From: Gemmatimonadaceae bacterium
Lineage (GTDB): Bacteria > Gemmatimonadota > Gemmatimonadetes > Gemmatimonadales > Gemmatimonadaceae
DNA length: 64,000 bases
Assembly: GCA_020851455.1 (NCBI GenBank)
Contig: JADZCT010000020.1
Coordinates: 62,001 to 126,000, forward strand
Direction of reading: 5' to 3'
Position numbers and translations under genes: made by a program. Positions 9,212 through 14,500 of this stretch are shown one piece after another. The notes below the pieces were generated by a model. It searched no databases. It worked only from the letters and a program-made list of their open reading frames with translations, and was not told the origin of the DNA. Position 1 is the first letter of the stretch, and each line of letters starts with the position of its first letter.

Positions 9212-10780
9212 ATGGTCCATCGCCTGATGCAAGCACTGTCAGCGCTGACAGCCGTCGCCGCAGCCATGGCGACGGCCACTGCCATGCCCGCTCGGATCGG
9301 CGCCCAGTCAATCTCCTCCGCTGACTCCGCGCTGGTCGCCCGGCTCCTCCTTGCGGAAGACCGGCGCGACACGTCGCAGGCGGCGTACGACGAAGGACTC
9401 CGGAGCGGCGACTCGCGAATCCGCGACATCGCACGTCGGGGCCTGGCGCGCTCGCGCGACCCGCGGTTCGCCGACCGCGACTCCATTGGGCCCCGGCCCG
9501 CCAAACCGCCGAAGTACGATGACCCGGCGTGGCGGCTGCGCTACAGACAACTGGGCAACCGCAACGACAACTGCGACGAGCTCGCCCACGGCTTGACGGA
9601 CAGCGCGTGGGCCGTGCGACTCCGTGCTGCGGACCTCCTCGGTGCAGCGTGCGCGGCCGATACTGCGGCCGTGGACACGCTCCGAGGATGGACGCGCAAC
9701 CTGCCCGCAAACTCCGCTCGCCGGAATGGCGGTGTTTCCTGGCACACGGCAGCGCACGGACTGCTTGCCCTGACTCGCGTCATGCCAGCCGAAGCCCGCG
9801 CCGCCCTCAGCCGGTTCACCTCGAGCAACATCTGGCATGTGCGCGTGTACGCTGCGCGCGCGGCCGCCGCGCTGAACGACACCGCTGCGCTCATCCGCCT
9901 CGCCGGCGACCGCGACGACAACGTCAGAGAAGCCGCGATAAGCGCGCTCGCGCGGGTGGCCGGCCACACCGCCGACGCGACAATCGTTCCCGCGCTCGCA
10001 ACCAAGGGATACCAGGCCGTACGCGCGGCCGCCGTGGCGCTCAGGGACACCCCGCTCAGGAAGCCCGCAACAGACGCGGCGATCGCGTCGGCCATTCGGC
10101 TGCGGCGTGACTCGAGCGAAACTTCGCGCGACGCAAGGCGCGCGGTCATTGCGCTGCTGGCGTCCGTCGCTGCGCCCGGCGATTGGCCGCAAATCAAACC
10201 GCTCACCGCGGACTTCGACTGCGTCATCGCCGCCGCGATCGCCGAACTTGGCCGCACGCTGGGCGACGCAACCGCGACGCCGTCGTGCTCGCCCTTGCCC
10301 GTCACCCTGCCGCAGGAAGCTGTGCGCCTGGCGATGGGAGGCGAAGCACGCCTCCGGGTCACCCTTGCCGACTCGAGCGGCGGCGGGTCGTTCGTTGTAC
10401 GGCTCCGCGGCGATGTTGCGCCAATCATGGCTGCGCGCGTCGTCGAACTCGCGCGCCGGGGGTACTACAATGGCCTCACGTGGCACCGCGTCGAGCCGGA
10501 TTTCGTGATCCAGGGCTTCAGTCCCGGCGCAAGCGAGTACATCGGATACCCGCGGTTCTTCAGCGACGAGCTTGGCGCCGTGCCTCATGTGCGCGGCACG
10601 GTTGGAATGAGCACCCGCGGGCACGACACCGGCGACGCCCAGTGGTTCGTCAACCTCAGCGATAACCTCCGCCTGAACCGTGACTACACGGTGTTTGCGG
10701 AGGTTTCCGAGGGGATCAACGTCGTGGACGGCGTGCTCGAGGGCGACGTCGTCGCGAAAGTCGAGGTGCTGCCGCCCTAG
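9212..10780 (+). CDS. Exported HEAT-repeat protein fused to a cyclophilin-type peptidyl-prolyl isomerase
   Basis: 522 residues. An AAGGAG site (9193-9198) precedes the ATG. Residues 1-32 are a signal peptide (ends IGAQ). Residues about 40-330 are repeated helical pairs rich in Ala/Arg/Asp with recurrent D-D-N-V-R-E-A-A-I-type and W-A-V-R-L-R-A-A-type turns, typical of HEAT/PBS-lyase repeats. Residues about 385-520 are a cyclophilin domain: VRLRGDVAPIMAARVVELA, the LTWHRVEPDFVIQGF strand with the catalytic Arg, and GTVGMSTRGHDTGDAQWFV with the Gln. These match PpiA/B-type prolyl isomerases. The HEAT array probably presents clients to the isomerase in the periplasm or at the membrane, which is inference. 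It ends convergently with the AhpD-like gene, sharing the CTAG tetranucleotide as both stop codons. Confidence 0.9.
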   Translation: MVHRLMQALSALTAVAAAMATATAMPARIGAQSISSADSALVARLLLAEDRRDTSQAAYDEGLRSGDSRIRDIARRGLARSRDPRFADRDSIGPRPAKPPKYDDPAWRLRYRQLGNRNDNCDELAHGLTDSAWAVRLRAADLLGAACAADTAAVDTLRGWTRNLPANSARRNGGVSWHTAAHGLLALTRVMPAEARAALSRFTSSNIWHVRVYAARAAAALNDTAALIRLAGDRDDNVREAAISALARVAGHTADATIVPALATKGYQAVRAAAVALRDTPLRKPATDAAIASAIRLRRDSSETSRDARRAVIALLASVAAPGDWPQIKPLTADFDCVIAAAIAELGRTLGDATATPSCSPLPVTLPQEAVRLAMGGEARLRVTLADSSGGGSFVVRLRGDVAPIMAARVVELARRGYYNGLTWHRVEPDFVIQGFSPGASEYIGYPRFFSDELGAVPHVRGTVGMSTRGHDTGDAQWFVNLSDNLRLNRDYTVFAEVSEGINVVDGVLEGDVVAKVEVLPP

Positions 10781-11346
10781 CCGGGCCGCCCCACGCCCAG
10801 TGCGTCCGCCATCCTGTTGATGTAGTTGAACCATGCGGCGATCGTCGCAACCTGCAGGATCGCGGTGTCGTCAAACCCGTGCGTCCGGAGTCCATCGAGC
10901 GTTGCGGGCGACACCTTCGTGGCGTCCTTCGTGATCATCTCGGCGTATTCGAGCATTGCGCGCTCGCGCGCGTCGAGCTTCGCCGTGCGCCAGTCCGTCT
11001 TGATCGCCTCCACCAGCGCTTCGTCCTTGGTCACGCGACGCAGAAACTCTGCGTGAGCGTCGGTTCAATACCTGCAATGATTCGCGACGGATACCACCGT
11101 TGCGATCATCTCGTGGTCTTTGCGCGAAAGCGGAAGCGACGGATCCATCGCCGCGCCGAACGTCGCAAAGGCGTGATACATCACGTCGGGCAGCAGAGTG
11201 TGCGACGAGCCGATCTGCCCTTCGGGCGGAATCTGCGGCTGCGACGGAAGCCGGTACTCGCCAGGATACATCTTCTTGTACTTCAAGGACGCTTCCCGTA
11301 CCTGTTCGGGAGCGTTCGCCGGGTCGTACGTCTTGATCCAGGTCAT
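10777..11346 (-). CDS. AhpD-like (carboxymuconolactone decarboxylase fold) peroxidase-related protein with in-frame TGA at the active site; candidate selenoprotein
   Basis: 189 codons from the ATG at 11346 (WIKTYDP start) to TAG at 10777, interrupted only by an in-frame TGA at 11067-11065 (codon 94). Reading TGA as selenocysteine (U) gives VANHCRYU followed by TDAHAEFLRR. This aligns with the family's redox motif, which normally reads NxCxYC followed by xxxH: Cys91 is kept, the resolving Cys is replaced and the following His98 is present. The rest is intact: KDHEMIATVVSVANH before, then LDARERAMLEYAEMIT and a FDDTAILQVATIAAWFNYINRMA helix typical of uncharacterised peroxidase-related enzymes. 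Family members use the CxxC pair to reduce peroxides or disulfides. Sec-containing AhpD-like proteins are known from other bacteria. A SECIS-like hairpin follows the TGA. The alternative is a point-mutated pseudogene, or two ORFs of 94 and about 85 codons if no Sec machinery exists. Confidence 0.8.
11038..11067 (-). promoter_or_regulatory. Bacterial SECIS-like hairpin directly after the in-frame TGA
   Basis: Reading the minus strand, TGA at 11067-11065 is followed by 16 bases, then a 5-base loop AGTTT (11048-11044) closed by a perfect 6-bp stem ACGCAG/CTGCGT (11054-11049 with 11043-11038). Bacterial SECIS elements recognised by SelB lie just 3' of the UGA inside the coding region. They have a short apical stem, a small loop with a G among its first two bases (often GU), and at least about 16 bases between the UGA and the loop. 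All of these are met here, at the lower limit of spacing. Because the region is also coding, chance formation is possible. Confidence 0.6.
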
Positions 11347-11461: not shown

Positions 11462-14400
11462 GTGAGCATCGCGCGCGTCCCCGTCCTCCTGGCCCTCTGT
11501 TCTGCGGCAACCGTCATTTCTCCCACGCGCAGCGCCGTGCAGCAGGCCGCTGCCCCGCTGGACAATGCGCGCAGCCCGGCGTATGCAGCCGACGGACGGC
11601 TAGCCGCTTCCGTGAATGGCAACCTGTATGTTCAGGAAGCGGCAGGCGGCGCTTGGCGCCAGTTGACGCGCGGCCCCGCGTGGGACCGCGACCCGGCGTG
11701 GACGCGCGATGGTGCCATCGTGTTCTCATCCAACCGCGATGGCCGCTTCTCGCTGTGGCAAACCCCTGCAGCAGGCGGCGATGCATGGCGACTCACCGAC
11801 GCGAAGGACGATGACAGCGCGCCAAGCGTTGCCCCGGACGGTACGATCGCTTTCGTGCGCGGCTTCAGCGGCGCCGCCCGTATCTGGCTGCGCTCGCCTG
11901 ATGGCGACGAGAAGCGCCTGACGAACCGCGAGGAATCGGAGCTCGCGCCCGCATTCTCCCCCGACGGCAGCCACATCGCGTACGTGCAGGTCTTCGAAAC
12001 CGGCCGACGCCTCCTCGTACGCAACGTCGCAACCGGACGCGACGGAATGGTGACCGTGGATCGCATGCCGGAGTCGCTCGCCTGGGCGCCGGACGGCTTG
12101 CGGATCGCATTCTCCGCCGCCAGCTCGCCCGCCGGCGTATACGTGGCGGCAGCCAACGCGTCGTACGTGAACTTCGCTGCATCACGGCGCGGCGACGTCG
12201 CGTGGTCGCCAGATGGCCGCACGCTCGCCATCGCGGAGTACGACAGGGGCGGACCTTCGTACAACGGCGACCCGGCCCGACTGGGCGACCGCGCGGTCGC
12301 GGACCCGTTTGGAGACCGCAACCCGCTCGTACTGGTTGCCGCGCCGTTGGCGCCGGATGCCGACCGCCGCGAAGCCGCCGTCGGCGTCACGAACGACCGG
12401 GCCGCGCGCAACGCCGACACGTTCGACCGCACCTGGCAACGGACGGCCGACATCTACTTCGGAAGCGGCGCGCGCGCGCCGAAAGATGCGCGCGCCAGGT
12501 GGGATGCGCTGCGCGCCAGGTACCGCCTGCAGGCAGTGGCGGCCAAGGACGACGACGACCTCCAGCGTGTCCTCTACCGGATGATTCGCGAACGGCCCAA
12601 CCTGCGCGAACCGGCAAGCGGGCGCGCTGCAGTCTCGAGCGCTCATCCGGTCGCAACGGCTGCCGGCATCGAAATCCTCCGTGCGGGCGGGAACGTCGTT
12701 GACGCAGCCGCGGCCGTGAGCTTCGCGCTCGGCGTCGTCGAGCCAGACGCCAGCGGACCCGGCGGATACGGGCAGATGGTGATCGCCCTTGCGAAGAACG
12801 ACTCGCCAAAGCTCATCGAGTTCATGACCCGCGTTCCCGAAGAAGGCGGCCTCGACAATGCTTCCCTGCTCGTGAATGGCCGCTACCCGTCCGACGGGCC
12901 CGTCCTCGCCAACGTACCCGGCACCATCGCGGGGATGTACAGCGCGTACAAGCAGTACGGGTCGGGCAAGATCGCGTGGAAGGACATTGTCGCCCCTGCA
13001 ATCCGCGCCGCGCGCGAGGGCTACGTGGTGAGCGACGGACTCGCAACCACGCTCTCCCTCGAACGCGAGCATTTCCTCAAGTACGAAGGCAGCCGCGCAC
13101 TCTTCTTTCGCAACGGCAACCCGGCCATCGCGGGCGACACGGTGAAGAACCCTGATCTCGCCTGGGTGCTCGAGCAGGTTGCCGAGCGCGGCGCCGACGG
13201 CTTCTACAGGGGCCCTGTCGCCGAGAAACTCGCCAGCGATCTGCGCTCCCACGGCAATGCCATGAAGGTGAGTGACCTCAACCGCTATTTCGCGGTTGAC
13301 CGGGAACCCGTGCATGGCACCTACCGCGGCTACGGGATCTGGTCCAGCGCGCCGCCGGTTTCCGGCGGAGCTGACCTCGTGGGCAAACTCAACCTTGTCG
13401 AGCAGTACGGGCCTGTCCGTCCTTACTTCGACGATGCTGCATCATTCCATGCGCTGCTCGCCGCGTGGACGCTCGTTCCGCGCGGGCAGGTTGCCGACCC
13501 CGCCTTCTGGCCGGTGGACATCGCCGCGCAGGTAAGCAAGGACTCGGCAAAGGTGCGATGGACCTGCTTCCGGCCCGACCGTGCGGTGCGTGCATCCGAC
13601 GTTCGCCCGAACTCGATGGGATGCGACCCGGCGCCGCCCGGCTCCGGCGCCGGCAGCCCGGGCGCAGGTTCACTTGCCGCGGCGGGAGCGGCGCATGGCA
13701 CACCGCCCATGACGTCGGCGCTGGAGCCGTACACCGAATTGCTCGCCAGCGGGCTCGACCCGCGCAACTGCGAGCCGTTCCACGCCCGCGAAGTTGACCA
13801 CTGCCACATGACCGGCACCACGGCGTTCGTCGTCGCCGACAACGAGGGTAACGCGGTTGCGGTAACGCAGACTCTTGGCACGTGGGGTGGGAACTTCTAC
13901 GTGAGCCCCGGGCTCGGCTTCATCTACAACGACAAGCTCACCTCGTACTCGACCGACCCAAACGGCTTCGGTGCGCGTATTCCCTTCGCGCGCCACGGCA
14001 GCACCCTCGCGCCGACGATCGTCACGAAGGACGGACGCCCCGTATTCGCGGTGGGCGCCGCCGGAAACGCGTGGATCACATCGGCCGTGTTCGAGACGCT
14101 CCTCGGCCTCGTTGATTTCGGGATGACCCCCCAGCAGGCACTCGAGCAGCCACGCTTCCTGCCCGGCGGACGCGGCGGAGCCGCTCGAGCTGCGCCCGCA
14201 ACGGAAGCTCCGCTGCTCGCAACGGCCACCGCAGAGGGTGCGGGACGTGGAGGCCGCGGCGGGCGCGGAGGCATATTCGCCGGCCGCGGCGGCACCCCGG
14301 GACCTGTCTCGGTGCAGGTTGAGGACGGACTGTCACCCGACGTAGTCGCGAAGCTCCGTTCGATGGGATACGCGTTCGATTACGTGTCGCTCAAGGGCGA

Positions 14401-14500
14401 GCTGCGTGAGGGATACGGCGCCGCGGTTGCAATCAGTGGGAAGACTGTCACGGCCGGCGCCGATCCGCGCCGCGCCGGCGCCGCGGGTGCGGTTCCATGA
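11462..14500 (+). CDS. ggt: Exported fusion of a TolB-like beta-propeller and gamma-glutamyltransferase
   Basis: 1012 residues from the GTG at 11462, chosen because it starts a signal peptide (VSIARVPVLLALCSAATV); the open frame extends upstream without a plausible start. Residues about 35-310 are PD40/TolB-type repeats (DPAWTRDGAIVFSSNRDG, APAFSPDGSHIAYVQ, DVAWSPDGRTLAIAEY). From about residue 385 a full gamma-glutamyltransferase follows: SSAHPVATAAGIEILRAGGN, GPGGYGQM, and DHCHMTGTTAFVVADNEGN. Autocatalytic cleavage at the first Thr of the TT pair (about residue 786) would generate the N-terminal nucleophile. The usual TTH is TTA here. A Gly/Arg-rich insert (GRGGRGGRGG) interrupts the C-terminal part. 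GGTs hydrolyse or transfer the gamma-glutamyl group of glutathione and other peptides in the periplasm. The propeller fusion is unusual. Confidence 0.9.
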   Translation: MSIARVPVLLALCSAATVISPTRSAVQQAAAPLDNARSPAYAADGRLAASVNGNLYVQEAAGGAWRQLTRGPAWDRDPAWTRDGAIVFSSNRDGRFSLWQTPAAGGDAWRLTDAKDDDSAPSVAPDGTIAFVRGFSGAARIWLRSPDGDEKRLTNREESELAPAFSPDGSHIAYVQVFETGRRLLVRNVATGRDGMVTVDRMPESLAWAPDGLRIAFSAASSPAGVYVAAANASYVNFAASRRGDVAWSPDGRTLAIAEYDRGGPSYNGDPARLGDRAVADPFGDRNPLVLVAAPLAPDADRREAAVGVTNDRAARNADTFDRTWQRTADIYFGSGARAPKDARARWDALRARYRLQAVAAKDDDDLQRVLYRMIRERPNLREPASGRAAVSSAHPVATAAGIEILRAGGNVVDAAAAVSFALGVVEPDASGPGGYGQMVIALAKNDSPKLIEFMTRVPEEGGLDNASLLVNGRYPSDGPVLANVPGTIAGMYSAYKQYGSGKIAWKDIVAPAIRAAREGYVVSDGLATTLSLEREHFLKYEGSRALFFRNGNPAIAGDTVKNPDLAWVLEQVAERGADGFYRGPVAEKLASDLRSHGNAMKVSDLNRYFAVDREPVHGTYRGYGIWSSAPPVSGGADLVGKLNLVEQYGPVRPYFDDAASFHALLAAWTLVPRGQVADPAFWPVDIAAQVSKDSAKVRWTCFRPDRAVRASDVRPNSMGCDPAPPGSGAGSPGAGSLAAAGAAHGTPPMTSALEPYTELLASGLDPRNCEPFHAREVDHCHMTGTTAFVVADNEGNAVAVTQTLGTWGGNFYVSPGLGFIYNDKLTSYSTDPNGFGARIPFARHGSTLAPTIVTKDGRPVFAVGAAGNAWITSAVFETLLGLVDFGMTPQQALEQPRFLPGGRGGAARAAPATEAPLLATATAEGAGRGGRGGRGGIFAGRGGTPGPVSVQVEDGLSPDVVAKLRSMGYAFDYVSLKGELREGYGAAVAISGKTVTAGADPRRAGAAGAVP

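Follow-up and report, generated by a model that had tools for sequence, protein, structure and literature searches.

Selenocysteine (Sec)-containing relatives of AhpD with a CxxU motif were first described from the Sargasso Sea in 2005 (PMC1088965) and again in 2008 (PMC2398784), and a 2026 review (PMC13188914) lists TIGR01926, CxxU, as a selenoprotein family. Among the relatives of this fold, PA0269 has the relay residues Glu36, Cys48, Tyr50, Cys51, and His55, and M. tuberculosis AhpD has Glu118, Cys130, His132, Cys133, and His137 (PMC3141380). A common feature of bacterial SECIS elements is a small apical loop containing G (PMC1088965).

The locus analyzed here lies on the reverse strand of a stretch of 64,000 nucleotides of Gemmatimonadota DNA (the window), located in contig C49 of a 2.96 Mb assembly of 139 contigs, 97% complete and 4% contaminated. 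It resembles the described CxxU proteins (TIGR01926 / COG2128) in family and motif, in the placement of the predicted Sec at the second Cys, and in a SECIS past the TGA whose apical loop contains G, but the sequences of 2005 and 2008 are marine-metagenomic, whereas the present gene belongs to a Gemmatimonadota genome that encodes Sec machinery of its own. Because AhpD-like CxxU proteins (TIGR01926/COG2128) are already listed, the gene adds to a known family, and the earlier note was right that Sec at this position has precedent among AhpD-like selenoproteins. The features of the locus, all on the minus strand, are the following.

10777..11346 (-), predicted AhpD-like selenoprotein gene (TIGR01926, CMD fold), 189 aa with Sec94; from translation, profile matches, and alignment
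11065..11067 (-), predicted Sec94 codon, an in-frame TGA, second position of C91-R-Y-U94; from translation and conservation of the TGA in homologues
11053..11055 (-), codon of His98, the proton-relay His and first codon of the frozen SECIS stretch; from an invariant alignment column and codon conservation
11038..11055 (-), putative SECIS core CACGCAGAGTTTCTGCGT, a 7-bp stem (11054-11048 with 11044-11038) and apical loop GUU; found once in the window

Translation of the frame from 11346 to 10777 with TGA read as U yields 189 residues ending at TAG, the only TGA being codon 94 (11067-11065), in the context NHCRY-U-TDAHAEFLRR and the motif C91-R-Y-U94-xxx-H98. Apart from this codon the gene contains no further stop and no frameshift, and the MTWIKT start of its product is kept in homologues. 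The TIGR01926 (peroxidase-related enzyme) profile matches residues 56-185 at 125.7 bits (cut-off 81.8), and the Pfam CMD profile matches residues 57-106; because both matches span the TGA, the two halves of the gene represent one family. Thus three claims of the earlier note hold on translation and alignment: that the halves share a frame and are separated solely by the TGA, that this TGA occupies the second Cys of a CxxC motif (HCRYU, then TDAH) with Cys91 and the conserved His retained, and that the rest of the gene is undamaged. The product falls outside two related AhpD-type families that carry (seleno)protein annotations, NF041238 (AhpD_rel_CFYUT) and NF053654 (YciW-related): it scores 64.7 bits against a cut-off of 175 for the former and 40 against 310 for the latter. 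A scan of the 64-kb window for same-frame segments joined by TGA reveals no other plausible selenoprotein gene.

On one side of the gene lies a convergent PPIase-type gene and on the other a large gene running divergently; the gene stands by itself, with neither a functionally linked neighbour nor an operon context found at the locus. The same neighbours are kept in the close relative L039, in which the counterpart of the divergent gene (window positions ~11462-14500, plus strand) is 66% identical over 994 aa; from a reading of its domains, this gene resembles a fusion of a TolB-type beta-propeller with a gamma-glutamyltransferase. Among 46 named loci for which long flanking sequence is available, 15, including L052, have one conserved large gene at most a few kb from the homologue; by its appearance this neighbour is presumably an AMP-binding (acyl-CoA synthetase) enzyme. 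No plasmid copies of the gene were found.

By sequence profile the product shares the CMD/AhpD fold with PA0269 (2O4D), M. tuberculosis AhpD, 2PFX, 2OYO, and 2PRR, all of which have Cys where the present protein would have Sec; the nearest solved structures are the peroxidase-related 2PFX, 3C1L, 6K40, 2OYO, and 2PRR. The Glu-Cys-Tyr-Cys-His spacing of PA0269 recurs in E79, C91, Y93, U94, and H98, which are invariant in alignment A1, so that the product displays the proton-relay pattern (Glu, Cys, Tyr/His, Cys/Sec, and His at fixed spacing), with Sec94 at the position of Cys133 of AhpD. In the proposed mechanism, SelB with Sec-tRNA(UCA) would recognize a hairpin starting ∼10 nt past the UGA, and Sec would be inserted at codon 94 in place of termination. 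The product would be a small all-helical CMD-fold oxidoreductase in which the Cys91-x-x-Sec94 pair, together with Glu79, Tyr93, and His98, may form an AhpD-type proton relay. The substrate attacked by the Sec94 selenolate would then be a hydroperoxide or some other oxidised compound, and the selenenyl intermediate would be resolved by Cys91. The likely reaction is hydroperoxide reduction by the Sec94 selenolate with Cys91 as the resolving residue.

Homologues were collected by a search that does not favour TGA, since the query carried C at this codon and the scan patterns leave the codon out; the resulting set is the nearest subfamily. Among 198 genomes of the class, each of the 14 homologues matching at E<=1e-30 has exactly one TGA, always at the same codon. 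In named genomes, TGA stands at codon 94 in 77 of the best 80 matches, which lie in Acidobacteriota, Gemmatimonadota, Planctomycetota, Armatimonadota, Latescibacterota, and others. At E<=1e-25, a scan of 395 genomes of the phylum recovered matches in 152, and among the matches listed all but that of G230 contain the TGA. The recurrence of TGA at the same codon in homologues excludes chance, and it bears out the expectation of the earlier note that related genomes would share it. The counterpart expectation, Cys at this codon in homologues, holds for the solved Cys-type relatives: in the alignments examined, 2PFX, 3C1L, and 6K40 have Cys at the position of residue 94. Two paralogues within the same genome have CxYC, and because other CMD-family loci without TGA exist there, Cys-type relatives coexist with the Sec form. 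In a tree of the family the window protein groups with three Gemmatimonadota proteins (support 99/100). Additional, more distant TGA-containing family members occur in G201, G162, and G199 of the same genus (L122-L125), G201 having three family members in all.

The three exceptions among the best 80 matches all have TGC. One, L065 (5001-5564, Latescibacterota), has a normal CxYC motif and yet retains the exact SECIS core CACGCAGAGTTTCTGCGT, so that it probably exchanged Sec for Cys recently and kept the SECIS as a relic. The other two, L047 (1238-1795) and L092 (5001-5564), form a small clade (98/94) in which CxYU is replaced by TPYC or CTSYC and the SECIS hairpin is not intact; since the first Cys is missing or displaced, the chemistry of this clade may differ. 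For this subfamily of TIGR01926 we lean, if only slightly, towards the view that Sec rather than Cys is the long-standing state, accompanied by a nearly invariant 18-nt SECIS core and shared across several phyla by descent and partly by transfer, and that Sec was lost later in the rare Cys forms, one of which keeps a relic SECIS.

The stretch that follows the TGA is conserved at the level of nucleotides. Codons +4 to +9 read CAC GCA GAG TTT CTG CGT in nearly all of 83 close sequences, with synonymous entropies of 0.16, 0.28, 0, 0, 0.09, and 0.41 bits, compared with ∼0.7-2.3 bits at most neighbouring codons, and GCA, TTT, and CGT are kept although they are disfavoured in the window (63/458, 11/114, and 19/259, respectively). 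A distant clade reads CACGGAGCGGGTCTCCGT, in which one stem pair is changed from C-G to G-C (ACGCAG..CTGCGT vs ACGGAG..CTCCGT) and the next alternates between A-U and G-U, with G still in the loop; the change is compensatory and preserves the stem. A third clade (L016, L137, L144) lacks this stem; the prediction for L016 places a stable hairpin, GACCTC..GAGGTC, a few bases downstream. Folding of the window hairpin alone is moderately unusual (z -1.97), 6.6% of synonymous variants folding as well over the 18 nt, and the case for the element therefore rests on comparison. An Rfam scan of the window gave no match at the gathering threshold. Taken from these comparisons, the hairpin after the TGA behaves as expected of a bacterial SECIS element under strong nucleotide-level selection.

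If the reading of the earlier note is true, the genome uses selenocysteine, and a search of the assembly for the four components of the machinery recovered all of them.

C76:94558-95886, selA, 539.5 bits, over cut-off
C76:257289-259121, selB, 336.3 bits, model positions 1-579 of 581, over cut-off
C14:5739-6656, selD, 378.1 bits, over cut-off
C14:5529-5621, tRNA-Sec with anticodon UCA, 73.5 bits, adjoining selD

Contamination of the bin is an unlikely source of these genes, because a genome of the same genus (G124, 100% complete, 20 contigs) also carries the TGA gene, a selB match over cut-off, and tRNA-Sec.

Within a single genome, a gene with a lone TGA and no other damage would look the same if a point mutation had created a premature stop and the downstream half were decaying, and the absence of a close copy from G063, G118, and G200 of the same genus (at least 97% completeness) could be read in this way. 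However, the TGA is common to homologues of many genera and several phyla, their C-terminal halves are intact and as well conserved as the upstream halves, with no decay in relatives, and synonymous sites past the TGA are frozen, which refutes a pseudogene and makes it highly improbable. Still less credible is an error of sequencing or assembly that turned a TGC or TGT Cys codon into TGA: the assembly is fragmented and solved relatives have Cys here, but the idea is refuted by TGA at this codon in assemblies produced independently by other studies.

Marginally less remote, though very improbable as well, is that TGA is read here as Trp, Gly, or Cys, either genome-wide or via a special suppressor tRNA. 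In principle a tRNA-Cys(UCA) or a reassigned code could serve Cys positions; against this stand the presence of tRNA-Sec(UCA), selA, selB, and selD, and the SECIS-type hairpin past the codon. A reassigned code in particular is rejected, as TGA terminates ordinary genes of the window (two of the six terminators counted). The candidate CxxU selenoprotein proposed from the sequence thus gains support from the conserved TGA, the full Sec machinery, a hairpin under selection, and the spacing of the active site, and it is very probable that the gene at 10777-11346 (-) encodes a functional AhpD-like peroxidase-related selenoprotein with Sec at codon 94.

The suggestion that Sec use is patchy and little described in this phylum stands in part. 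Gemmatimonadota are unmentioned in the selenoprotein reviews and surveys examined, and a full-text literature search, with subscription journals mostly outside its reach, returned no paper devoted to Sec in the phylum; such silence is weak evidence of novelty. The trait is nevertheless not rare, as tRNA-Sec was found in 277 of the 395 sampled genomes (70%) with E<=1e-10 and strict filters, a search in which the only controls to match were E. coli and M. jannaschii. It is present in 109 of the 118 genomes with a listed TGA copy versus 168 of the 277 others (Fisher p = 1.5e-11, relatedness uncorrected). The nine TGA-bearing genomes without a tRNA-Sec match include several fragmented assemblies and one single contig (G040). 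In the genus of G000, tRNA-Sec is kept by most members and this gene by a minority only, so other selenoproteins probably maintain the trait there.

Automatic annotation would split the gene or label it a pseudogene. The gene is ordinary in kind, and some interest attaches to how widely the phylum uses Sec and to the unusually constant SECIS. A core so conserved across phyla offers a well-defined test case for recognition by SelB. Gemmatimonadota use selenocysteine commonly, and the AhpD-like selenoprotein would be one of its users.
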